In this document: one piece after another, positions 31,977 through 46,600 of the stretch
Layout: each line of letters starts with the position of its first letter
How positions within the stretch are numbered: position 1 is the stretch's first letter
Source: Gammaproteobacteria bacterium
GTDB lineage: Bacteria > Pseudomonadota > Gammaproteobacteria > JAJPIJ01
Length of the DNA stretch: 62,131 nt
Direction: 5' to 3'
Assembly (NCBI GenBank): GCA_021324815.1
Contig: JAJPIJ010000003.1
Span: forward strand, 1 to 62,131
Made by a program: the position numbers and the translations under genes
The notes under the pieces: model-generated
The model's database searches: none
Seen by the model: only the letters and a program-made list of their open reading frames with translations
Told to the model about the DNA's origin: nothing

Positions 31977-32210
31977 ATGGCGCGTTTATTTCTGCTTTTC
32001 CTGATTGCCGCCCTGGTGTACCTCGTCCTGCGGCTGTTCCCGCCCTCCCGGCGTCCACCGGCGGTTCCGCCGGCGGCGGCCTCGTCAAAACTGGTCGGTT
32101 GCGCCCACTGCGGGTTGCGCGTGCCGGAGGCGGAGGCGGTGCGGCAAGGGGGGCGATATTACTGTGATCGGTCGCATGTGCCCGGCGGCGGGGGGGCGTC
32201 CCCGGCATGA
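31977..32210 (+). CDS. PP0621-type membrane-anchored zinc-ribbon protein
   Basis: The 77-residue protein has one N-terminal membrane helix (ARLFLLFLIAALVYLVLRLF), a proline-rich linker and a C-terminal zinc ribbon of the form CAHCGLRVPEAEAV...YYCDRSH (three Cys and one His). Such small proteins commonly precede pilS. The ATG at 31977 matches the helix start; a TTG at 31959 is the alternative. It overlaps pilS by 4 bases (ATGA), so the two are translationally coupled. A link to pilus control is from gene order only. Confidence 0.8.
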   Translation: MARLFLLFLIAALVYLVLRLFPPSRRPPAVPPAAASSKLVGCAHCGLRVPEAEAVRQGGRYYCDRSHVPGGGGASPA

Positions 32211-33817
32211 CCCCGGACATTACCGTGCTGAAAAACAGGGAAACGACCAACTGGCGGGCGTTGCGGTTTTTCAATTTATACCGGCTGATCATCTCCGGGT
32301 TGTTCGTGGTTTTGGTGGTGACGAAGAACCTGCCGCCGCCCCTCGGGGCGGACAATCTCCACCTCTTCCGCCTCTTGGCCGTCGCCTATCTACTGATCGC
32401 CATCGCCCTGCAGGTGTTGCTGGAACGACGGCTGGCCGCCGTGCCGCTGCAACTCTTCACCGAGGTGGGCGTGGATGTCTTGTTCATCACCGGCATGATG
32501 TACGCGAGCGGCGGCGTCGGGAGCGGTTTCGGCATGCTGCTCGTCACCACCATTGCCGGCGGCAGCCTGCTGTCGCCCGGTCGCATGGCCTTTTTTTACG
32601 CCGCCTGCGCCGCGCTGGCCGTGCTGGGCGAGGAGATCTACGCCTATACGGTGGATCTGCGCGACATCAATTACGCGCAGGCCGGATTTCTGGGCGGCAG
32701 CTATTTTGTCACCGCGCTCACCGCCTACGTGCTGGCAAGCCGCATCCGTGAAAGCGAGGCGCTGGCCGAGCGCCGCGGACAGGACCTGGCCAATCTGGCG
32801 CGCCTGAATGAACACATCGTCCAGCGCATGCAATCCGGGGTCCTGGTGCTGGATGCGGCCGGCCGGGTGCGGCTCAGCAACGACGCGGCCCGCCGGCTGC
32901 TGGGTCTGGAAAGACCGCCCGGTGACTGGTCGTTGAATGAGCTGCCGGCCGGCCTGGCGTCGCGTTACCGGCGCTGGCGCGCCAGCGGCGCGGTTGACGT
33001 CACGCCGTTGCGGGTGGAGACGAGCGGCATGGAGGTGCTGTCCTCTTTTCTGGCCCTGGAGGGCGGCGGGACGCTGGTGTTTCTCGAGGATGCCGCGGTG
33101 ATGCGGCAGCGGGCGCAGCAGCTGAAACTGGCCTCGCTGGGCCGGCTCACCGCCAGCATCGCCCATGAAATCCGCAATCCGCTGGGCGCCATCAGCCACG
33201 CCGCCCAATTGCTCTCCGAGCCGGACACCGCCGACGTGGAAAACCGGCAGCTGACCCGCATCATCCACGAGCATTCCCAGCGGGTGAACACCATCATTGA
33301 GAACGTGATGAGCTTGAGCCGCCGCGACGCCGCGGCGCCGGAACGGCTGCTGCTGCGCGACTGGCTGGACAAGTTCGTCATCGAACTCAAGCTGCGTCAC
33401 CAGCTGCCCGACGGCGCCGTCGCCGTCGCGCTGGCTCCCGCGGACATCGCCGTGCGCGTCGACCCGAGCCAGTTGCATCAAATCCTGTGGAATCTCTGCG
33501 AGAACGCCCTGCGTTACAGCCGCGATCGACAGCCGCGGCTGGAACTGCGCGGCCATGTCCACCCGCAAACCCGGCGTCCCTGCCTTGATGTCATAGATTA
33601 CGGACCGGGCATACCGGCGTCGGCGCGGGATCACATCTTCGAACCGTTCTTCACCACCGAACATTCGGGCACGGGCCTCGGGCTTTACCTCGCCGCCGAA
33701 TTGTGTGAGGCCAACCAGGCCGGCCTGACCCTGCACGCCAACAGTCCGCAGGGCTGCTGTTTTCGCATACAATTCGCCCCGGTGGATCGATTTCGGCAAT
33801 CGCGGGAGTGGTCATAG
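32207..33817 (+). CDS. pilS: Sensor histidine kinase PilS
   Basis: PilS senses pilin levels in the inner membrane and phosphorylates PilR. The 536 residues contain about six membrane helices (residues 25-180) and a PAS-like domain (NEHIVQRMQSGVLVLDAAGRVRLSN). The HisKA phospho-acceptor His320 lies in TASIAHEIRNPLGAI. An HATPase domain follows with NALRYSRD, DYGPGIP and GTGLGLYLAAELCEANQAG. It ends 3 bases before pilR. The membrane topology and the neighbours leave little doubt about identity. Confidence 0.95.
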   Translation: MTPDITVLKNRETTNWRALRFFNLYRLIISGLFVVLVVTKNLPPPLGADNLHLFRLLAVAYLLIAIALQVLLERRLAAVPLQLFTEVGVDVLFITGMMYASGGVGSGFGMLLVTTIAGGSLLSPGRMAFFYAACAALAVLGEEIYAYTVDLRDINYAQAGFLGGSYFVTALTAYVLASRIRESEALAERRGQDLANLARLNEHIVQRMQSGVLVLDAAGRVRLSNDAARRLLGLERPPGDWSLNELPAGLASRYRRWRASGAVDVTPLRVETSGMEVLSSFLALEGGGTLVFLEDAAVMRQRAQQLKLASLGRLTASIAHEIRNPLGAISHAAQLLSEPDTADVENRQLTRIIHEHSQRVNTIIENVMSLSRRDAAAPERLLLRDWLDKFVIELKLRHQLPDGAVAVALAPADIAVRVDPSQLHQILWNLCENALRYSRDRQPRLELRGHVHPQTRRPCLDVIDYGPGIPASARDHIFEPFFTTEHSGTGLGLYLAAELCEANQAGLTLHANSPQGCCFRIQFAPVDRFRQSREWS

Positions 33818-33820
33818 TTC

Positions 33821-35137
<1,317 letters not shown>

Positions 35138-35455: not shown

Positions 35456-35875
35456 ATGAAGAAACTGCAACAGGGCTTTACGCTCATCGAATTGATGATC
35501 GTGGTCGCGATCATCGGCATTCTGGCGGCGGTGGCGATTCCGGCGTATCAGGACTACACCATCCGCGCGCGCGTGACGGAAGGCATCGGCATGGCGGCGG
35601 CCGCGAAGACCTCGGTATCCGAGTACCGGTTGAGCAAAACCGGCTTCCCGGCGGACAATCCCACGGCCGGCATTTCCTCGACCATCAAGTCGCAGTACGT
35701 CGCGGGGTTGACCATCACCAATGGCGCAATCACGATTACTTACAGCACCCTCGGTAATGCCAACGCCGATGGCAAGACAATTATCTTTAACCCCACCTTC
35801 ACCAACTCAACGGTGCAGTGGAGTTGCACGGGTGGCAATATGCCGGCCAAGTACAAGCCGGCGAATTGCCGCTGA
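35456..35875 (+). CDS. pilA: Type IV pilin PilA (major pilin)
   Basis: The 139-residue prepilin has a short leader cut by PilD after Gly7 (QQG-FTLIE). N-methyl-Phe is the first mature residue, and Glu12 (mature Glu5) and a long hydrophobic helix ([19 protein letters not shown]) follow. The C-terminal disulfide loop is formed by the two cysteines in QWSCTGG and PANCR, which closes very near the end. AGGAG precedes the ATG. The middle and C-terminal parts are rich in Ser, Thr and Asn (for example [10 protein letters not shown]), offering possible glycosylation positions. It is an independent unit between a sigma-54 promoter and a terminator. Confidence 0.96.
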
Positions 35876-35902
35876 TAGTTGGTTGCACAGGTTTGTTTTG
35901 TG

Positions 35903-35934
35903 AAAAACCCCGGCTTCATGCCGGGGTTTTTTTT
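35903..35934 (+). terminator. Rho-independent terminator of pilA
   Basis: The stem AAACCCCGGC / GCCGGGGTTT with loop TTCAT is followed by a run of eight T. It begins 27 bases after the pilA stop and ends 8 bases before the next ATG. Genes behind it need leaky read-through or a promoter that is not obvious. Confidence 0.92.
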
Positions 35935-35942
35935 GCCGTCAC

Positions 35943-37877
35943 ATGAATGAGCCGTTACGACGCCGGACTTTGTTGACGGGAACGGTTTTCTACGCGCTGA
36001 TGGGCATCGTGTGGCTCGCTTACCGGCCCGGCCTGGGGGGAGGGCTTGTTTTCGATGACCTCATCAACCTGGAGCCGCTCGCTGATTTTGACAACGGGCT
36101 TTTGACCTGGCGGGAGCTGGTTTCAGGCAATGTCTCGGGCCCGCTGGGAAGACCGCTGGCGATGCTCACCTTCGCCTTCAACGTCGCCGCCTCCGGGACG
36201 GACGTCTGGAGCTATAAATTCACCAACCTGGCCGTTCATCTGCTCTGCGGCTGTCTGGTTTTCTGGCTCAGCGGGCGCCTGTTCCGGAATGTTCAGGAAC
36301 TGGCGGCCCACCGTTGGTCGTGGGCGTTGTGGGTGGCGGGCTTGTGGCTGTGCTCGCCTTTGTTTGTGAGCACCGTCCTCTATGTCATCCAGCGGATGGC
36401 GCAGTTATCCGCCTTGTTCACTTTCGCCGGATTGCTGCTCTATGCCGTGGGTCGCCAGAATATCGACGGCAGATTCGCCGGCGGCGCGGTTTTGATTCTC
36501 AGCGCGTTCGTCATCTGCTGGCCGGCGGCGACATTCAGCAAGGAAACCGGCGCCCTGTTCCCACTTCTGGCATGGATCACGGAGATTTTCATATTCCGTT
36601 TCCAAGGCCCGCCGCGCGTGCGCCGTCTGTTGCGGGCGCTGTATTTCGTCACCCTGGCCGTGCCGGCGGCGGTGGTGCTGATCGTGGTTCTGTTGAAGCC
36701 GGACCTGGTGCTGGCGGGATACCAGTTCAGGGATTTTACGCTGTCCGAACGCCTGTACACCGAGGCGCGCATACTCTTCGACTATCTTCGCCAACTGCTT
36801 CTGCCGCGGGGAGGCGCGATGGGGCTTTACCACGATGATTTCCCCCGCTCGACGGGCCTGTTTTCGCCGCCGCTGACGATGGCGGCGCTGCTGTCGTGGT
36901 GCGCCCTGTTGCTCGCGGGCTGGTGGAGTCGCAATACGCGCGCGCGCATGCTCGGCTTCGCCGTGTTTTTTTTCCTGGGCGCGCAGCTGCTGGAGTCCAC
37001 GGCGTATCCGCTGGAGCTTTATTTCGAGCACCGCAACTACCTGGCGGGGTACGGCATATATGCGGGCCTGGCGGCCGCGATGGCCGTGATTTTGGAACGC
37101 ATGAACAAGGCCCGCGGAATTCTCACCCCATGTTTGATCACCATGCCGCTGCTGTTTGCGCTGGCCACGAGCCAGCGCGTGCTGGCATGGCAATCCCCCG
37201 CGCAGGACCTGTTGATTACGGAGGCGCACCATGCCCAATCTCCGCGCGTGAGCATGGATCTGGCGCTGTGGTTCGCCGGTATTGGTGATTTTGCCGATGC
37301 CGAGGAGCGGCTTGAACGGGCCGATGAACTCAGGCCGGAGGACTCCGGTGTGGCGCTGGTGCGGTTGCTTGTTCGCTGTTCGGAAGGACGCCCCGTGACT
37401 TCCGGTGATTACGCCAGACTTCAGGCCGTCAGGGACATCTCGCAGGACATCACCACGACGGCGGCGTTGCAATGGCTCGTGAAGAAGCTGCGCGCGAATC
37501 AGTGCCACGAGGTGGATACAGAATATCTGGCCGATACCATCACACGGTGGTGGCTGCACACCCGGCGGCCCGCCAACGACAACACCCAGTGGAATCTGCA
37601 CATCGCGATGGCTGATTTGTATCGACAGGCGCGGCGTTATGATGCCGCGCTGGCGCATCTCTACGCCGCCCTGGAGATCCAGCCGCAATTGCTCCATCCT
37701 GAGCTGGTCGCCGCCGATATCTGGATAGAACGGCGGAACCTCGAACGTGCCCAGGCGGTGGTGAATGATCTGAAACGGCGCGATCGTCACCGCCAGCGCA
37801 GTCAGACCATGTTGATAGCCGCTTATCAACGATATATTGACGCCATGCGGAAAGGGCCGGCTGCGCCACGACGATGA
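35943..37877 (+). CDS. TMTC-like GT-C membrane protein with C-terminal TPR, paralogue 1
   Basis: The 644-residue protein has about nine to eleven membrane helices in residues 10-410. The first loop carries a DD motif (GGGLVFDDLINLEPL). Conserved segments include GRPLAMLTFAFN, STVLYVIQRMAQLSALF, FSKETGAL and ESTAYPLELYFEHRNYLAGYG. A cytoplasmic or periplasmic TPR tail with paired helices follows (about 425-630). This pattern resembles TMTC/DUF1736 O-mannosyltransferase-like proteins. It lies directly behind the pilin terminator and overlaps its paralogue by 4 bases. Pilin or envelope sugar transfer is inferred from topology and location; no activity is proven by sequence. Confidence 0.75.
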   Translation: MNEPLRRRTLLTGTVFYALMGIVWLAYRPGLGGGLVFDDLINLEPLADFDNGLLTWRELVSGNVSGPLGRPLAMLTFAFNVAASGTDVWSYKFTNLAVHLLCGCLVFWLSGRLFRNVQELAAHRWSWALWVAGLWLCSPLFVSTVLYVIQRMAQLSALFTFAGLLLYAVGRQNIDGRFAGGAVLILSAFVICWPAATFSKETGALFPLLAWITEIFIFRFQGPPRVRRLLRALYFVTLAVPAAVVLIVVLLKPDLVLAGYQFRDFTLSERLYTEARILFDYLRQLLLPRGGAMGLYHDDFPRSTGLFSPPLTMAALLSWCALLLAGWWSRNTRARMLGFAVFFFLGAQLLESTAYPLELYFEHRNYLAGYGIYAGLAAAMAVILERMNKARGILTPCLITMPLLFALATSQRVLAWQSPAQDLLITEAHHAQSPRVSMDLALWFAGIGDFADAEERLERADELRPEDSGVALVRLLVRCSEGRPVTSGDYARLQAVRDISQDITTTAALQWLVKKLRANQCHEVDTEYLADTITRWWLHTRRPANDNTQWNLHIAMADLYRQARRYDAALAHLYAALEIQPQLLHPELVAADIWIERRNLERAQAVVNDLKRRDRHRQRSQTMLIAAYQRYIDAMRKGPAAPRR

Positions 37878-39826
37878 CGGAAGGGCTGGCAGAGAATGGC
37901 GGAAGGATGAAGTCCCCGCTATCCGTGAACGAGACCCTGCTGATCGGCGCCGGGTGCATTGCGCTCGTTTTGTTGTGCGCGCGCCTCTACTGGCCCGGCC
38001 TGGGTGGTCCGCTGATCTTCGATGATTTTCCGCAGCTCTCCCCCCTGCTGGTCCTGGATCCAGGCCCGCAACTGGACTGGCGCGGTTATGTGACGAGCAA
38101 CAGCGGCCTGCTGGGGCGTCCGGTCGCCATGGCCAGCTTCTTGATGAATGCGCTGGGCAGCGGGCCGGACATTTCCGCGTGGAAATACACCAACGTCATG
38201 ATCCATTTGCTGACCGGCCTGGTGTTGATCTGGCTTTCCGCCTGCCTGTTCGCGGCGCGACAGCGGGGAGCCATGAGGCCGTTGCCGGCCTGGACGCCGG
38301 CCTTGGTTGTCGGCGGATTCTGGATGCTGCACCCCCTGCACGTCAGCACGGTTCTTTACGTCGTTCAACGCATGGCGCAGCTCTCGGCGCTTTTCTGTTT
38401 TGCCGGCATGTTGTGTTACTGGCAGGGGCGGCGACTGCAGATCGCCGGTCATAAAGGCGGACATCCGCTGGTGGTGCTTTCTTATCTCGTCTTCATGCCG
38501 CTTGCCGCGTTCAGCAAGGAGAATGGCGCCTTGTTGCCGGTTTACACCCTGCTGATGGAGATCTATTTTCTGAAGTTCAACGGCGATCGCCTCACCCGGC
38601 GCATCGTCATCGGCTCCTTCGTCCTGTTTCTGCTGATTCCCGGCGTCACCGGTTTGTGGGCGTTGCTGGCGCACTACCACTATTCGTTGCAGGCGGCATA
38701 TGCGCTCCGCGATTTCGATCTCACGCAGCGACTGCTGACCGAGCAGCGGATATTGTTGCTGTACATGTCGCAAATACTGGTCCCCACGCTGGCAAAATTC
38801 GGATTGTTCCATGACGATATTCCACTCTCGACGGGATGGTTGACGCCGCCGTCGACGCTGGGCGCGGGATTGGTCCTGCTGCTGCTCGTTTGGTTTGCCT
38901 GGAAGATCAGGGACCGGCTGCCGGTTGTCGGCTTCGGTATTGCGTTTTTTCTCGCCGGGCACTTGATGGAATCGACGATTCTGCCGCTGGAATTGACATT
39001 CGAACATCGCAATTACCTTCCTTCCTACGGTCTTTTGCTGGCTGCCTGCGATCTGGTGCGCACGATGAACTGGGCGGCGGGCGTTAAAGCGGCCATGGCG
39101 CTTGCCGCCGGTGCGTTATTCAGCTTTGTCCTGTACCTGCATGTTGATAAATGGTCCAGTTATCCGAAAATGCTGGCCTATTTCACCCGGACCCATCCCT
39201 CCTCGCCGCGCGTGCGCGCCGGCGTGGCGGAATATCTCACGGAACAGCGTCGCTATCGGGATGCGCTGCTGCTGCTTGAAGGCGAGCAAACGCAGGGGGC
39301 ATTGCTGCAGAGACTTTACATATACTGTCGCAGTGATCATCGCCTGCCGCCGCAGGCCCTGGAGCGGACGGCGGATTCCCTGACCCATGCGCTGGATAAT
39401 TATGCCGTGAGCGGCTTGATTGAGTTGGGTCGCGAAGGGTTGGATGACGGCTGCCGGTTCGATCAGGCGCGATATCTTGAGCTGACGGAGACGGCCGACA
39501 AACTGGGGGTGCCGGCCGGTACCAGCCGCTACAAGCTTCTAATCTTTCAGGCCCATTATCAGTGGCGGCTTCGCAGGTTCGAAGATGCAATGGCCACCCT
39601 GCTTGAGGCATATAATATTCTTCCCGAGGATCCGGTGCCTCTGTTTTTGATGACCGAATGGCTGATCAGCCTGAATCGCATGGATGAGGCGCGCATGTAT
39701 TACGATAAGGCCGTGCACGTGGCGCGGGCTTCGCACAAGAACTACAGCGTATTCATCGACAGCGTTGGTCTCATGTTCACCGCGCCGGAAAAGGCGGCGC
39801 ACTGGCAACGGGAGGATTTGTCGTGA
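37874..39826 (+). CDS. TMTC-like GT-C membrane protein with C-terminal TPR, paralogue 2
   Basis: The 650-residue protein has the same layout as its upstream neighbour and clear alignment along its length. Matching segments are GGPLIFDDFPQLSPL, GRPVAMASFLMN, STVLYVVQRMAQLSALF, FSKENGALLP, FHDDIPLSTGW and ESTILPLELTFEHRNYLPSYG. The first loop keeps the two Asp. The C-terminal 200 residues are helical repeat-like (SEYRLSKxxxDALLLLEGEQ-type helices) but diverge more. ATGA overlaps the end of paralogue 1. An in-frame ATG at 37907 could be the start. Two retained copies suggest different sugars, linkages or acceptors; that is inference. Confidence 0.75.
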   Translation: MTEGLAENGGRMKSPLSVNETLLIGAGCIALVLLCARLYWPGLGGPLIFDDFPQLSPLLVLDPGPQLDWRGYVTSNSGLLGRPVAMASFLMNALGSGPDISAWKYTNVMIHLLTGLVLIWLSACLFAARQRGAMRPLPAWTPALVVGGFWMLHPLHVSTVLYVVQRMAQLSALFCFAGMLCYWQGRRLQIAGHKGGHPLVVLSYLVFMPLAAFSKENGALLPVYTLLMEIYFLKFNGDRLTRRIVIGSFVLFLLIPGVTGLWALLAHYHYSLQAAYALRDFDLTQRLLTEQRILLLYMSQILVPTLAKFGLFHDDIPLSTGWLTPPSTLGAGLVLLLLVWFAWKIRDRLPVVGFGIAFFLAGHLMESTILPLELTFEHRNYLPSYGLLLAACDLVRTMNWAAGVKAAMALAAGALFSFVLYLHVDKWSSYPKMLAYFTRTHPSSPRVRAGVAEYLTEQRRYRDALLLLEGEQTQGALLQRLYIYCRSDHRLPPQALERTADSLTHALDNYAVSGLIELGREGLDDGCRFDQARYLELTETADKLGVPAGTSRYKLLIFQAHYQWRLRRFEDAMATLLEAYNILPEDPVPLFLMTEWLISLNRMDEARMYYDKAVHVARASHKNYSVFIDSVGLMFTAPEKAAHWQREDLS

Positions 39827-39854: not shown

Positions 39855-40748
39855 ATGGAACCGCCGTCGCCAGCCGTGAACGCGTCGATGAGCGGCGTCA
39901 GCATCATTCTGCCGGCCCACAATGAAGCGCCGGCGGTGGCCGCGCTCATCCCCGCCTTGCGCACGCTGTATCCCGCGGCCGAGATCATCGTCGTGGATGA
40001 CGGCTCCGGCGACGACACCGGCGAGGCCGCCCGCAAGGCCGGCGCCAGGGTGATCCCGCACCCCTATCGCATGGGCAACGGCGCCGCGATCAAGTCGGGC
40101 GTCCGCGCCGCCCGCGGCGAGGCGTTGGTGTTCATGGACGCCGACGGCCAGCACGCCCCCGCCGATATCGACCGCCTGATCGACAGGATGAACCAGGGCT
40201 ATGACATGGTCGTGGGGGCGCGCGCTGGAGGGTCGCAGGCCAGCGTCGGCCGCTGGCTGGCGAATTCCTTCTACAATCGCTTTGCCAGCTGGATGGTGGG
40301 ACACCGGGTCGAGGACCTGACCTCGGGCTTCCGCGCCGCGCGCGCCGGCAGGTTCCGCGAGTTCCTGCATCTGCTGCCCAACGGCTTTTCCTATCCGGCC
40401 ACGTCGACCATGGCGTTTTTCCGCTCGGGCTACGCGGTGGCTTACGTGCCCATCGTCGCCGGACGGCGGACGGGCAAAAGCCACATCCGGCCGCTGCGTG
40501 ACGGCATCCGTTTCCTGCTGATCATGTTCCGCATCTGCACCCTGTACTCGCCGCTCAAGCTGTTTCTGCCCATCAGCGCGTCGGTGTTTGTCACCGGCCT
40601 GGGCTACTATTTGTACACGTTTCTGACCATGCACAGATTCACGAACATGAGCGCGCTGCTGTTCATCGCCTCCCTCCTGATCTTTCTCATCGGCCTGGTC
40701 TCCGAGCAGATCACCATGCTGTTGTACCAGAAAAGCAATCAGCGATGA
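39855..40748 (+). CDS. Family-2 glycosyltransferase (DPM1/GtrB-like, membrane anchored)
   Basis: The 297-residue protein opens with SIILPAHNEAPAVAALI, then VDDGSGDDT, GNGAAIKSG and the metal/sugar-nucleotide motif MDADGQH (Asp95, Asp97). Two C-terminal membrane helices (about 228-250 and 265-285) follow, as in polyprenyl-phosphate sugar synthases. It would load a sugar from a nucleotide donor onto a polyprenyl phosphate. That is exactly the donor type GT-C enzymes such as the two upstream proteins use. An ATG at 39888 is an alternative start. ATGA overlaps the next gene. Confidence 0.85.
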   Translation: MEPPSPAVNASMSGVSIILPAHNEAPAVAALIPALRTLYPAAEIIVVDDGSGDDTGEAARKAGARVIPHPYRMGNGAAIKSGVRAARGEALVFMDADGQHAPADIDRLIDRMNQGYDMVVGARAGGSQASVGRWLANSFYNRFASWMVGHRVEDLTSGFRAARAGRFREFLHLLPNGFSYPATSTMAFFRSGYAVAYVPIVAGRRTGKSHIRPLRDGIRFLLIMFRICTLYSPLKLFLPISASVFVTGLGYYLYTFLTMHRFTNMSALLFIASLLIFLIGLVSEQITMLLYQKSNQR

Positions 40749-41809
40749 GAGTGCTGATCGACGTCAACCATCCCGCCCACGTTCATTTTTTCCGTCATCC
40801 CCTGCGGATGCTGCGCGAACACGGACATGAGGTGGTGGTGACCAGCCGCGACAAGGAAATGGCGCTGGATCTGCTGCGCGAGCTTGGCATCCGGAATGTT
40901 CCCCTGTCCAGCCAGGGCGGCGGCGGCCTGCTGACGCTGGCCCGCGAGCTGGTGATCAGGGATGTGCGACTTTATCGCGTGGTGAGGGAATTCCGCCCCC
41001 ACGTCATGGCGGCGATCGGCGGCACCTTCATCGCCCATGTGGGCGCGCTGACAGGCGTGCCGTCGCTGGTGTTCTATGACACCGAAAACGCCACACTGCA
41101 GAATGCGATCACCTATCCGCTGGCCTCCTGCGTGTTCGCGCCGCGCTGCTACGAGGCCTGGCTGCCGGCGCGCCGGCATGTGCGCTACGACGGGTATCAT
41201 GAGCTGTCCTATCTTCACCCGCGTTATTTCTCGCCGGATCGGCGCATCGCGGAGGATAACGGCCTGGCCCGCGACGGCGACACGTTCTTTCTCCGGCTGG
41301 TGTCGTGGCGGGCGAGTCACGACATCGCCGAACGTGGCTGGACGACGGAACTCCTGCGCGGGGTGGCCGGCAAATTGTCGGCGCTGGGACGGGTGCTGAT
41401 CTCATCGGAGGCGGCGCTGCCCGCCGATTTGCAGGAATTTCGTTACGCCGGGAGCGCGGCGCAGGTGCATCACGTCATGGCGTTCTGTCGCGCGTTCGTG
41501 GGCGAGAGCGCGACCATGGCCTCGGAGTGCGCCGTCCTCGGCGTGCCGGCGATCTATGCGGCGCACACGGGCCGCGGTTACACCAACGAGCAGGAACGGC
41601 GTTACGGCCTGGTGATCAACGTGCGCTCGCTGGACTGGCCGACCGTGGAACGGGCGATGGATCGATTGCTGTCACTGCCGCCCGATCATGGTCGAAAGGC
41701 GAGGGCGAAACTGCTGGCCGGGACCATCGACGTGGCGGCCTTCGTCGTCGAGTGCCTGGAAACCTTTCCAGAGCCCCTGCGCCGTTACCGGCATTCGCAG
41801 GCCGCCTGA
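40745..41809 (+). CDS. DUF354-family glycosyltransferase-like protein
   Basis: The 354-residue protein starts MRVLIDVNHPAHVHFFR and continues with EVVVTSRDKEMALDLL. A central DTENATLQNAITYPLA segment and a C-terminal sugar-nucleotide-like part (SATMASECAVLGVPAIYA) are visible. These are DUF354 features, related to UDP-GlcNAc 2-epimerase/GT-B proteins and common in surface polysaccharide loci. Whether it is an epimerase or a transferase is not readable. The ATG overlaps the GT2 stop, and the AsnB start follows after 1 base. Confidence 0.85.
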   Translation: MRVLIDVNHPAHVHFFRHPLRMLREHGHEVVVTSRDKEMALDLLRELGIRNVPLSSQGGGGLLTLARELVIRDVRLYRVVREFRPHVMAAIGGTFIAHVGALTGVPSLVFYDTENATLQNAITYPLASCVFAPRCYEAWLPARRHVRYDGYHELSYLHPRYFSPDRRIAEDNGLARDGDTFFLRLVSWRASHDIAERGWTTELLRGVAGKLSALGRVLISSEAALPADLQEFRYAGSAAQVHHVMAFCRAFVGESATMASECAVLGVPAIYAAHTGRGYTNEQERRYGLVINVRSLDWPTVERAMDRLLSLPPDHGRKARAKLLAGTIDVAAFVVECLETFPEPLRRYRHSQAA

Positions 41810-41810
41810 A

Positions 41811-43706
41811 GTGTGCGGCATTGCCGGCTGGTTCAGTCCGCTCCCGATCGATTCCGGCGACGCGCTGCCGCGATTGCAGAACATGATCGCCGCCATCGCC
41901 CATCGCGGGCCGGACGGGCGGGGGTATGTCTGCACCGCGCACGCGGCCCTCGGCCATGCACGGCTGGCGATCATCGATCTGGAGGGCGGGCGGCAGCCGC
42001 TCAAGGACCCGACGCGCGACGTGACCATCGTGTTCAACGGCGAAATTTACAACTACCCGCAGTTGCGCCGGGAATTGCAGGGGCAGGGGCATGTATTCGC
42101 GACGCATTCGGACACCGAGGTGATCCTCAAACTCTATTTGCAGGAAGGCGCGGGAGGGTTTGATCAACTGCGGGGCATGTACGCCTTCGCCTTGTGGGAC
42201 GGGGAGCGGCGACGCGCGATTCTGGCGCGCGACCCGCAGGGGATCAAGCCGTTGTTCTACCGCCTTGATCACGGAGGGCTGGGCTTTGCCTCGGAAGCCA
42301 AGGCCTTGCTGGCCGGCGGGCATGCCGCCGCCGAGCTGGACGAATCCTCCCTGCACCTGCTGATGAATTTCCGTTATCTTCCCGGCGAACGGACGCTCTT
42401 CCGCGGCATCGAACAGCTTGCGCCCGGTGAGATATTGCAATGGGACCTGGCCGGGCGCACGCAGCGCTTCACGATAGCGCCTCCCTCCTCGGCTCCGGGA
42501 GCGGACGTTCTGGCGGCGCTGGAGGATTCCGTCGCCGTGCATCTAACGGCGGACGTGGAGGTGGCGGCGTATCTCTCCGGCGGCATGGATTCCGCCGCCG
42601 TGGCCGCGCTGGCGGCCAGAAAAAATCCCGCGTTGCGCACGTTCACCCTGCGGGTGGGTGATGATCCGCGCGAGGCGGATCATGCCGCGCAAACAGCGGC
42701 GCTTTTGGGCGTAAGAAATCAGGTGTTGGAGTGCCACGCGGACATGAATTCCCTGCTGCCAAGATTAATCTGGCATCTGGAGACGCCCAAGGTTAACGCC
42801 GTGCAGGTGGCCTTGCTGGCGCGGCACACCGTCCGCCATGTGAAGGTGGCGCTTTCCGGCCTCGGTGGCGACGAATTGTTTCTGGGCTACAATTTATTCC
42901 GGTGGCTGGCACAGGCCCACGACCTCGGCCGGATCCTGCCTGGTTTCCTGGGCAGACTGCTGGGCGGCGCGGGGGGTGAGATCGTGCGCCGCCTCCAACG
43001 GGCGCCCTGGAGCGAAGCGGAGCGCGCCATGAGGATCGTGGGAGAGCTCCCCGACTGGCCGCGTGTCTATGGCTTGATGCGCAACGTCTGGGACAGTCCG
43101 GCGCTGCGCCGCCTCATCTATGGACCGCGTCTGCTCGACTCGGCGCTGCCCGATGCGTTTGACGTCATCCGCGCGCGCTGGCCCGCGGGGATGGATCCGG
43201 TCATGGCGGCCGCGCGCTACGAGCGGCGTGAAAAAATGGTCAACGATCTGCTGTGGAACGAGGATCGATGCAGCATGGCGGCGGGGTTGGAGGTGCGGGT
43301 GCCGTTTGTCGACACCGTGCTGGCCTCCGCGGTTGCGCGTCTTGATCGCCGCGTCTTGATGAACGGGGGCCGGCCCAAGGCGTGGCTGCGCCGCGAATTG
43401 CAAAAGCTGCTGCCGGCGCAGGTCATGCGGCGGCCCAAGAGCGGTTTTCAGATCGACGCGCCGCGTTTTTACCATGAGTTTCTGCGGATGCCGGCCCATG
43501 ACATTCTCTCGGAGGCGGCGCTGCGCCGGCACGGCCTCTTCAATCCGCGTTTCGTAAGACGACTGATGGCATTGCCGCCGGCGCCGCGCCACCGCTGGCA
43601 CTATTTCATGCTTTTTCTCATGCTGGGCATGCATCTGTGGATGGAACAGTTCGTCCTTCCAGGACCTGCCGCCGGCGGTCGTCTGACGGTTGCCCGGGGG
43701 TCATGA
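41811..43706 (+). CDS. Asparagine-synthase-like glutamine amidotransferase
   Basis: The 631-residue protein starts at a GTG that puts the nucleophile at Cys2 (MCGIAGWF), which decides the start. The class-II glutaminase domain (HRGPDGRG, NGEIYNY) is followed by an ATP-pyrophosphatase synthase domain with SGGMDS at residues 256-261. In glycan loci such proteins (WbpS-type) amidate sugar carboxylates such as uronic acids; a true asparagine synthetase role is less likely here. It has a 1-base gap to DUF354 upstream and an ATGA overlap downstream. Confidence 0.88.
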   Translation: MCGIAGWFSPLPIDSGDALPRLQNMIAAIAHRGPDGRGYVCTAHAALGHARLAIIDLEGGRQPLKDPTRDVTIVFNGEIYNYPQLRRELQGQGHVFATHSDTEVILKLYLQEGAGGFDQLRGMYAFALWDGERRRAILARDPQGIKPLFYRLDHGGLGFASEAKALLAGGHAAAELDESSLHLLMNFRYLPGERTLFRGIEQLAPGEILQWDLAGRTQRFTIAPPSSAPGADVLAALEDSVAVHLTADVEVAAYLSGGMDSAAVAALAARKNPALRTFTLRVGDDPREADHAAQTAALLGVRNQVLECHADMNSLLPRLIWHLETPKVNAVQVALLARHTVRHVKVALSGLGGDELFLGYNLFRWLAQAHDLGRILPGFLGRLLGGAGGEIVRRLQRAPWSEAERAMRIVGELPDWPRVYGLMRNVWDSPALRRLIYGPRLLDSALPDAFDVIRARWPAGMDPVMAAARYERREKMVNDLLWNEDRCSMAAGLEVRVPFVDTVLASAVARLDRRVLMNGGRPKAWLRRELQKLLPAQVMRRPKSGFQIDAPRFYHEFLRMPAHDILSEAALRRHGLFNPRFVRRLMALPPAPRHRWHYFMLFLMLGMHLWMEQFVLPGPAAGGRLTVARGS

Positions 43707-44899
43707 ACGCTGATTCCGTGCATGGCGTGATCGCCGCGGATGCGAGGGCCGCACTGGCGTCGACCCTGGCGTGGAGCCGGGCGCGCGATTATCACGGCCA
43801 CACCAAACATGATGCGTTGGCGAGTCCGCTGCTGTGGGCGCTGTGCGGCTGGGGCAAATGGCCGCGCCTGCTCGCAATCCAGGCCGTCATGCGCAGTCCG
43901 GTCAATCTGCGCCCGCTCCTGGGCGTGCCCAAGACCTGCAATCCCAAGGGACTGGCGCTTTTCGTCCACGCCCATCTGGATCGGCACGCCGTAAACCGGA
44001 CGCAGTCCGATCTGGACGAGGCGCAGCGGCTGTTGCAACGACTGATGACGATGCGATCACCGGGTCGCTGGCGCGGACTGGCGTGGGGCTATCCCTACCC
44101 CTGGCAGGATTTGGGATTCTTTGCGCCCGCGAACACCCCCAACGCCGTCGTCACGGCGTTCATCTGCGAGGCCTTTCTGCATGCCCACGCCGTTACTGGC
44201 CTGCGGGAGTGGTTGGAGGTGGTGGCGCAGGCGATTCCGTTTTTTCTCGGTGATCTGCGCGTGCTCAAGGACACGCCCGATGAACTTTGTCTCTCCTACA
44301 TGCCGGTGGACATGCGCATGCGGGTGATGGACGTGAGCATATTGATCGGCTCGGTGCTGGCCGGGTACGAACGGCAGGCCGGCGACCGCAGTCATCACGA
44401 CACGGCCCGCCGGCTGGTGAATTACGTCGTGCGCCGGCAGACGGAATACGCCGCCTGGTTTTACACCGATCCGCCCGCGGACTCCCCCGTCTGCCATGAC
44501 AACTACCACACGGGTTTCATCCTTGATGCGCTGTGGCGCTACATGCAGGCCACCGGCGATCGCGGTCACGAGGAGGCGTATTACCGGGGTCTGCGCTACT
44601 ATCATGATCATTTGTTCAACGCTGACGGCTCTCCCCGGTGGATGAGTGATCGCGATTATCCCCATGATATCCATGGCGCGGCGCAAGGCATCATTACCTT
44701 CGCGCGTCACGGGGACGCATATCCCGGCACGGCGGACAGGATTGTGGCGTGGGCGTTGAGACGCATGTACCATCCGGCGGGACGTTTTTACTATCAGGAA
44801 ACGCCCTGGTACCGGAAGAAATTCACCCTGATGCGCTGGTGCAACGCCTGGATGGCGCGGGCGCTGGCGCATTATCTGCGCTGCGGGGCGGAGACATGA
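43703..44899 (+). CDS. Predicted alpha-helical-barrel sugar enzyme, function unknown
   Basis: The 398-residue soluble protein has repeated helix pairs and aromatic patches such as GYPYPWQDLGFF, NYHTGFILDALWRYMQATG and YYHDHLFNADGSPRW. The YPHDIHGAAQGIITFARHG segment is also typical of (alpha/alpha)6-barrel enzymes acting on carbohydrates. Proteins of this kind recur in polysaccharide clusters, sometimes annotated by homology as delta-aminolevulinate dehydratase-like. I cannot name the reaction. The start at 43703 (MNADSVHG) is set by the ATGA overlap with the previous gene. The next gene overlaps by 4 bases too. Confidence 0.65.
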   Translation: MNADSVHGVIAADARAALASTLAWSRARDYHGHTKHDALASPLLWALCGWGKWPRLLAIQAVMRSPVNLRPLLGVPKTCNPKGLALFVHAHLDRHAVNRTQSDLDEAQRLLQRLMTMRSPGRWRGLAWGYPYPWQDLGFFAPANTPNAVVTAFICEAFLHAHAVTGLREWLEVVAQAIPFFLGDLRVLKDTPDELCLSYMPVDMRMRVMDVSILIGSVLAGYERQAGDRSHHDTARRLVNYVVRRQTEYAAWFYTDPPADSPVCHDNYHTGFILDALWRYMQATGDRGHEEAYYRGLRYYHDHLFNADGSPRWMSDRDYPHDIHGAAQGIITFARHGDAYPGTADRIVAWALRRMYHPAGRFYYQETPWYRKKFTLMRWCNAWMARALAHYLRCGAET

Positions 44900-45678
44900 A
44901 AGCCGTGGAACCCTTGCAACCGGAGCCGCGGGCCACGCTGACGGGCGAAATCCGTTCGTTCTGGTCCCGCAACGTCAATGCCGAGCGCATCATGGGCAGG
45001 GCGGTCTCGCGGCACGCGCGCGGCTCCGAGGGTTATTTCCAGGATTTGCAGGAACAGCGTTACCGTTCACACCGCCATCTGCTGCCGTGGATCTGCTCCA
45101 TGCAGCCGGGAAAGGCGGTGCTTGAGATCGGCTGCGGGGTGGGGCTGGACAGCTACGTCATGGCGCGGCGCGGGCTGCGGGTGACCGCCGTCGATTTGAC
45201 GTTCGTGGGCGTGCAGACCGCCAAACGGCGTTTCGAGCGCGAGAACGTCGCGGCGGCCTTCGCGGTGACCGACGCCTGTCATCTGGCCTTCGCGAACGAA
45301 ACCTTCGATTACGTGTATTCCTTCGGAGTCTTGCACCATGCGGCCGACACCGAGCGCACGATCAAGGAGGCCTTCCGCGTGCTCAGGAAGGGCGGTGAGG
45401 CGCGCATCATGCTTTATCACCGGCGCTCGCTCAACGAGCTGGTGCACCGCCTCTTGAAGGTGCCGTTCGAGGACAAGGACGAGCTCTGTCCGGTGGTCCG
45501 GCGTTTTACCGTGGCTGAGGTCCGGAAAATGTTCTCCGATTTTGCCCGCGTGGAGACGAAGATCGAACATCTTTTTGGCGAAGGCTACGGGATGCTGTTC
45601 CGATTGACGCCGGGATGGCTCCATCGCCTGCTGTCGGGGCGTTTCGGCTGGCATCTTATGATCGTGGCCGAGAAATGA
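44896..45678 (+). CDS. SAM-dependent methyltransferase (class I), first of three
   Basis: The 260-residue protein has motif I VLEIGCGVG at about 75-83, then VTAVDLT and the Methyltransf_11-type YVYSFGVLHHAADTERTIKEAFRVLRKGG. The acceptor is unknown; within the cluster a sugar O- or N-methyl group is likely. The start is fixed by a 4-base overlap with the preceding gene. Confidence 0.88.
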   Translation: MKAVEPLQPEPRATLTGEIRSFWSRNVNAERIMGRAVSRHARGSEGYFQDLQEQRYRSHRHLLPWICSMQPGKAVLEIGCGVGLDSYVMARRGLRVTAVDLTFVGVQTAKRRFERENVAAAFAVTDACHLAFANETFDYVYSFGVLHHAADTERTIKEAFRVLRKGGEARIMLYHRRSLNELVHRLLKVPFEDKDELCPVVRRFTVAEVRKMFSDFARVETKIEHLFGEGYGMLFRLTPGWLHRLLSGRFGWHLMIVAEK

Positions 45679-45691
45679 GACGCGCCAGCGC

Positions 45692-46600
45692 ATGACCGCC
45701 TCATCAACCGTCTCCATCCGCGCGCCCGTGCCCTTCCTGCGGCGCCTGCGGCTGTACCTTTCCATGATCCGCTACGGCAACGCCCATAATGAGGACTTTG
45801 CCCGCGAGCACGCGGAGTTTTTCAGGGCCATGACGGCTTACTGCGGCGGCTGGCGCGGCAAGCGGGTCCTCGATGTGGGCTGCGGAAAATCCTTCTGGCT
45901 GACGCTGCTGCTGCACAGCGCCGGCGCGGAGGTGACCGGCATCGACGCCGAGGTGACCGACCCGCAAGTCCATTTGCGGAAGTACCTGCACATCGCGCGC
46001 CGCAACGGCATCGAGCGCGCCCTGCGCACCTGGTTCTGGGATTACCGCTACGCGCGCCCCTACTACCTGGCGCTGGCGCGAAACGTTCCCTTTGCGCTGC
46101 GTTTCGACGGCATCGATTTGCGCGCCATGGACGCCACGGCCCTGGATTTTCCCGACAACACTTTCGATCTCGTGGTATCGCACGAGGTGTTCGAGCATTT
46201 ACCCGATGTTCCCGGCACCCTGGAATCCCTGGCGCGGGTGCTGAAGCCCGGGGGACGCACTTACATTTACATTCACAATTACACCAGTCTCTCCGGTGGT
46301 CATCACATCGCGTGGAAATATCCGGATACCGAGCCGTCCGCCATCGTTCCGCCATGGGATCACCTGCGTGAAAACCGCCATTCCGACATCCCTTCCTGGA
46401 TCAACCGGCTGCGCGAGTGTGAATACCGCGGGATGTTCGAGAGTCTTTTTGACATCCTCGACTGGATTCCACTCAAGGAGGAAGGGCGCGCACTGCTGAC
46501 ACCCCCTCTTCGGGAGGAACTGGCGCAATTCAGCGAGCAGGAGTTGTTGACCAAGGGTTTCGTGATCGTGGCGAAGCCAAAGAAGTCGCCGGATAAATGA
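45692..46600 (+). CDS. SAM-dependent methyltransferase (class I), second of three
   Basis: The 302-residue protein has motif I RVLDVGCGKS (58-67) and VTGIDAEVTD. Motif II/III segments are LVVSHEVFEHLPDVPGTLESLARVLKPGGRTYIYIHNYTSL. It begins 13 bases after its neighbour. The long middle insertion with aromatic residues may form the sugar-binding site. The specific substrate is not known. Confidence 0.85.
   Translation: MTASSTVSIRAPVPFLRRLRLYLSMIRYGNAHNEDFAREHAEFFRAMTAYCGGWRGKRVLDVGCGKSFWLTLLLHSAGAEVTGIDAEVTDPQVHLRKYLHIARRNGIERALRTWFWDYRYARPYYLALARNVPFALRFDGIDLRAMDATALDFPDNTFDLVVSHEVFEHLPDVPGTLESLARVLKPGGRTYIYIHNYTSLSGGHHIAWKYPDTEPSAIVPPWDHLRENRHSDIPSWINRLRECEYRGMFESLFDILDWIPLKEEGRALLTPPLREELAQFSEQELLTKGFVIVAKPKKSPDK

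Follow-up and report, generated by a model that had tools for sequence, protein, structure and literature searches.

A candidate pilin glycosylation cassette with TMTC-like GT-C/TPR enzymes directly behind pilA in Gammaproteobacteria

What is the role of two large, related membrane proteins whose genes lie directly behind that of a major type IV pilin, and is the pilin their acceptor? The question is raised by a stretch of 62,131 nucleotides of the gammaproteobacterial contig JAJPIJ010000003.1 (the window, hereafter), where the gene order, as seen directly, is sucCD (divergent), pilS, pilR, pilA, P1, P2, GT2, DUF354, and an asnB-like gene. The features considered here are the following:

32207-33817, plus strand: pilS, sensor kinase gene 5' of pilA (ORF list, syntenic homologues)
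33821-35137, plus strand: pilR, response regulator gene 5' of pilA (ORF list, syntenic homologues)
35456-35875, plus strand: pilA, gene of the major type IV pilin, which is the presumed acceptor (PF00114, E 1.7e-23, and N_methyl matches)
35901-35934, plus strand: intrinsic terminator that separates pilA from P1 and presumably attenuates the accessory genes (sequence, hairpin search)
35943-37877, plus strand: P1, whose TMTC-like GT-C core in the membrane extends to around residue 420, with a C-terminal TPR domain (AlphaFold, VIA-align, residues)
37874-39826, plus strand: P2, paralogue of P1, of the second-position clade (alignment, AlphaFold, VIA-align, tree)
39855-40748, plus strand: GT2, polyprenyl-phosphate sugar synthase of the ArnC/DPM1/GtrB type, presumed maker of the donor (PF00535, E 3.7e-30, and profile matches)

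The original prediction described P1 and P2 as tandem paralogues which overlap by four bases and can be aligned along their length, and this description holds, given that the ORFs (644 and 650 aa) overlap by 4 bases (ATGA) and share 35% identity across 631 aligned residues (E 4e-95), with all the motifs listed at the time (FDD, VLYVxQRMAQLSALF, FSKExGAL, and FEHRNYLxxYG) being found. The coordinates also agree with the position assigned to the pair, as P1 starts (35943) 8 bases past the end of the pilA terminator (35934). The observation on this pair is real and is no chance finding.

Further downstream (40745-46600), GT2 overlaps the DUF354 gene by 4 bases, and after this gene come the asnB-like gene, an ORF of 420 aa that matches nothing in Pfam, and two ORFs resembling methyltransferases. 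This stretch, from DUF354 to the methyltransferases, is kept in the sister species only, and its genes may alter the donor sugar or serve another glycan.

The fold of the two proteins could be seen directly in AlphaFold models built on alignments of the window proteins and fetched relatives (P1, pLDDT 94.1 and pTM 0.94; P2, pLDDT 93.4 and pTM 0.93). From the N terminus to about residue 420-450, VIA-align superposes both models on GT-C enzymes (Z 15-20, about 300-357 residues), namely yeast and human OST, Pmt4, Pmt1/2, archaeal AglB, PglB, ArnT, and ALG12, with P1 reaching Z 16-20 to OST, PMT, PglB, and ArnT; the best matches are thus mostly protein-acting enzymes (OST, PMT, PglB), plus ArnT. 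The C-terminal part of both models matches TPR proteins. As the Foldseek E-values against the PDB are weak, with nothing under E 0.001 and a best value of 1.9e-3, to Pmt4, and helical bundles may give a VIA-align Z of about 13 through noise, the case for a GT-C fold rests on the block of top-ranked GT-C enzymes together with the residues. A phmmer search of the PDB with P1 gave no match, and the top 60 profile matches were all to TPR, leaving the GT-C part unmatched. Similarly, Pfam and NCBIfam gave only TPR matches to P1 and P2, in the C-terminal part (TPR matches were obtained in 16 of the 20 family members examined), and neither collection names the family.

The catalytic residues, also observed directly, are D38, D39, R70, K200, E201, R364, and Y366 in P1, and D50, D51, R82, K215, E216, R379, and Y381 in P2, matched by order and position, not by residue-level superposition, to the TMTC motif table of PMC7801869. 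Among the 125 near-full-length members of the family, the first Asp of the DD motif (M1) is found in all 120 that are aligned there, the Lys and Glu of the KE motif (M4) in 125 and 120, and the Arg and Tyr of the R..Y motif (M7) in 125 and 123, respectively. The Lys and the two Arg are preserved in 122-125 of the 125, and the M5 Asp is mostly preserved (HDD). A GT-C core with a catalytic Asp, for which structure prediction had been proposed as the check, is present in both proteins (D38 D39; D50 D51), and we are highly confident that both are GT-C glycosyltransferases.

The proteins had also been called TMTC-like, and part of this name stands, since they share with TMTC1-4, which are eukaryotic O-mannosyltransferases (GT-C/PMT), the combination of a GT-C core with a TPR domain at the C-terminal end, and an identical order of the DD, KE, and R..Y motifs. 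On the other hand, P1 and P2 are bacterial and pilin-linked, M2 has shrunk from SHKSYRP to RP and M3 from RxD to R in the family, and DUF1736 (PF08409) gave no match in the window proteins or in the 20 family members, nor in the genome itself, in a search where the control gave no match either. Given the missing DUF1736, P1 and P2 are formally TMTC-like, and not TMTC.

Adjacency to pilA across genomes had been set beforehand as a test of the link to the pilin, and it was carried out on 369 genomes drawn evenly from the class Gammaproteobacteria, in whose contigs homologues were found by an alignment scan, a single-protein scan having given none. Counting from the matches listed, a strong homologue is present in at least 100 of the 369 genomes. 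In 77 of 106 informative loci, the GT-C gene is preceded on the same strand by a pilin gene at a distance of up to 500 bp (40-200 bp in most cases), a count obtained with a family profile made from the homologues of a query that itself lies next to pilA, so that linked members may be over-represented; a few of the 77 pilins are minor pilins, and no pilin is in view at 24 loci. The adjacency is, then, general in the class, and the case for linkage is stronger than the original prediction could make it. The same picture emerges from 79 named loci, which include Undibacterium, Dechloromonas, Dokdonella, Novimethylophilus, and one Pseudomonas viridiflava, with the pilin being divergent or otherwise near in several of those that have none upstream. 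Seven named genomes were searched in full, and in five of them the family has a single copy, at pilA. The presence of the family also tracks that of the pilin, as genomes that encode a PF00114 pilin have the family in 33 of 74 cases, and those that lack one in 2 of 40 (counts assembled by hand from two tables; Fisher p 4.5e-6, kinship ignored). Two of the three outcomes named in advance as refuting, i.e., homologues far from pilA and the lack of a GT-C core, were tested and did not occur. The conserved linkage is, like the gene order, a direct observation.

The boundary between the pilin and the accessory genes provides a further link. In the window, a hairpin that is rich in G+C and carries a T run, ending at 35934, was found by a separate hairpin search; the general terminator scan did not list it, probably because the stem consumes the first T's. 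Of 68 loci, 51 have a similar hairpin with a T run separating the pilin gene from the GT-C gene, vs. 2 of 68 when shuffled. A terminator 3' of the pilin that attenuates an accessory gene is a common feature of pilin-accessory cassettes (PMC11841053), so the hairpins tie the family to such cassettes independently of distance.

A third TMTC-like paralogue of the same genome (G000:C24) is found at a different pilin operon, with T2SSE/MshEN ATPase and several prepilin-motif genes in an MSHA-like order:

L031, 7323-9317, minus strand: the third paralogue, TMTC-like, which closes the MSHA-like pilin operon at its 3' end

The full GT-C/TMTC residue set is intact in P1, P2, and this paralogue, whose position supports, and does not prove, a pilin-directed function of the family. 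The same arrangement of a third paralogue at an MSHA-like operon is seen in the sister species.

The gene that follows P2 suggests which donor may be used. GT2 matches ArnC (E 6.5e-14, residues 14-263), as well as dolichol-phosphate mannose synthase (DPMS, E 9e-13) and sll0501, and its C-terminus has hydrophobic stretches that resemble membrane helices by eye. A GT2 homologue with at least 45% identity to that of the window, in practice 55-82%, follows in 53 of the 70 pilin-linked loci with downstream sequence. Given the kinship of GT2 to ArnC and DPMS, the donor of P1 and P2 is likely, to judge by sequence, a polyprenyl-phosphate monosaccharide. A flippase of the GtrA type (PF04138) was not found in the genome, in a search in which the controls matched. 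Taken with pilA, P1, P2, and GT2 probably form a pilin-accessory cassette; the role of P1 and P2 would be to move a sugar from a polyprenyl-phosphate donor to the pilin.

The same genes might instead decorate an envelope polysaccharide or LPS, their site 3' of pilA being incidental. The 4-base overlap of GT2 with DUF354 and the asnB-like and methyltransferase genes behind it are arranged as in polysaccharide clusters, and the Gtr and Arn systems, of the same logic, modify LPS (PMC11127046). We nevertheless regard this as unlikely, given that DUF354 and asnB follow in the same genus only, whereas pilA, the GT-C gene, and GT2 recur together across the class, that the family tracks the pilin, and that the third paralogue lies at another pilin operon.

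A similarly low probability is given to P1 and P2 being oligosaccharyltransferases of the PglB or TfpW type, which would transfer a preassembled or polymerised glycan of which GT2 supplies a part only. OST and PglB are indeed among the best folds, and TfpW, a pilA-linked GT-C enzyme, is reported to place D-Araf homopolymers (PMC11841053), but the single conserved synthase beside P1 and P2 is of the monosaccharide ArnC/DPM1 type. TfpW, from Pseudomonas group IV pilins, is like P1 and P2 in being a GT-C enzyme directly 3' of pilA, and it glycosylates the pilin (PMC11841053), as P1 and P2 would; it is unlike them in that its D-arabinofuranose supply genes sit elsewhere (PMC12369383), a comparison made by description. 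Finally, it is very improbable that P1 and P2 are assembly factors like TfpY, with catalysis lost or unused and the TPR as the active part, since, even though accessory proteins of the TfpY type occupy the same place behind the terminator (PMC11841053), the residues of the donor and metal sites hardly vary within the class, all three paralogues having them complete, and the donor synthase is conserved alongside the GT-C genes.

Returning to the transfer of a sugar to the pilin, the position of the acceptor site can be narrowed on one side. The window PilA ends in ...PANCR, and this terminal Arg closes the C-terminal-Ser route (PilO type), as the original prediction had argued; in the family-linked pilins, a C-terminal Ser or Thr is found in only 4 of 66. 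The Ser/Thr-rich loops to which that prediction had pointed are not special, given that linked pilins have the same Ser/Thr content as control pilins, with no enrichment and no difference between tandem and single loci. A fixed acceptor site sought across the linked pilins gave no clear signal. With the conserved linkage considered, it remains clearly probable that the pilin is the acceptor of P1 and P2.

In the mature PilA, Thr63 lies in NPTAG (residues 61-65; window 35657-35671), and shares its position number with Ser63 of meningococcal PilE, which is glycosylated in NNTSAG (PMC3643930); conservation of this Thr does not extend even to the sister species.

Why, then, would two enzymes be needed? 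In a tree of 125 members, 11 of the 19 second-position genes, from several lineages, fall in one clade (support 0.98), which holds 0 of 19 first-position genes (p 1.3e-4, relatedness ignored). The pair is thus no recent local duplication, and a second enzyme of a distinct kind has persisted in this position. No residue separating second- from first-position enzymes passed the thresholds. The proposal of two enzymes for two sugars is weakened by the donor synthase, given that all 18 tandem or triple loci where one was found carry only one (none is in view at three loci), a count made at these loci, with further synthases possible elsewhere in the genome. One sugar at two sites or steps is therefore favoured over two sugars, and two sites or two steps are tentatively offered as the explanation of the pair. 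The second gene is broken in some relatives (L037, L039), and is thus dispensable there.

In the proposed mechanism, the cassette would consist of pilA, the terminator, one or two TMTC-like GT-C/TPR glycosyltransferases, and then the polyprenyl-phosphate sugar synthase; the donor, the acceptor, the O-linkage, and the order of action are those that we infer. On the cytoplasmic face of the membrane, GT2 would attach a sugar to undecaprenyl phosphate, and some flippase would turn the loaded carrier over. P1 and P2 would then transfer the sugar, in the periplasm, to hydroxyl groups of the membrane-held PilA before its assembly. The TPR domain would hold the pilin, and P2 may serve a second site or have as its substrate the sugar that P1 has attached.

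Similar logic is found in the ArnC-ArnT and GtrAB-Gtr* systems, where a synthase of the ArnC/DPM1 type is joined by a GT-C transferase of the ArnT fold, unlike the present case in that the acceptor here is presumably the pilin, and not lipid A or the O antigen, no GtrA is found, and a TPR is added. A TPR joined to a glycosyltransferase that acts on a fibre subunit is also known in the flagellin glycosyltransferase FlmG (PMC7591256), which is, by contrast, a cytoplasmic GT-B enzyme. The O-OTases TfpO/PilO, TfpM, PglS, and PglL, of which TfpO, TfpM, and PglS are also linked to their own pilin gene, have a WaaL/Wzy_C-type domain (PMC12645811), for which the P1/P2 family has no Pfam or NCBIfam match, and TfpO and TfpM use the C-terminal Ser or Thr of the pilin, where the window pilin has Arg. 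Neither protein is, then, a TfpO/PglL-type O-OTase, which agrees with the original prediction that they do not resemble PilO.

Given the same type of enzyme behind the pilin across many gammaproteobacteria, with a donor gene, the cassette is probably an overlooked sugar-attaching machine. On balance, we lean towards a widespread gammaproteobacterial pilin O-glycosylation outside the named O-OTase classes, with TMTC-like enzymes, a periplasmic TPR substrate reader, its own polyprenyl-phosphate sugar synthase, and a dedicated second enzyme for a second site or step. No description of the family was found in the part of the literature that was covered, and an earlier one may exist elsewhere. If this reading is true, at least about a quarter of the sampled genomes (at least 100/369) modify pili in this way, by a route outside the current list of bacterial O-glycosylation classes and in carriers that are mostly uncultured or little studied. 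The eukaryotic TMTC enzymes would also gain a bacterial counterpart whose protein partner is known, which could help to reveal the role of the TPR domain. Pilin sugars influence phage sensitivity in Pseudomonas (PMC11841053).

Some observations on gain and loss may be added. No homologues were found in plasmids searched with P1 or in phages searched with P2. TMTC-like genes lie in pieces 3' of pilA in three other genomes (L037, 8993-10886; L039, 5884-6985; L048, 9667-10453), as if the (second) enzyme were easily lost. In Pseudomonas, the family is sporadic, being found in 1 of the 149 genomes searched; this one, Pseudomonas viridiflava, has the full pilA-GT-C-GT2 cassette, of which the 148 others have none, and it was likely acquired horizontally.
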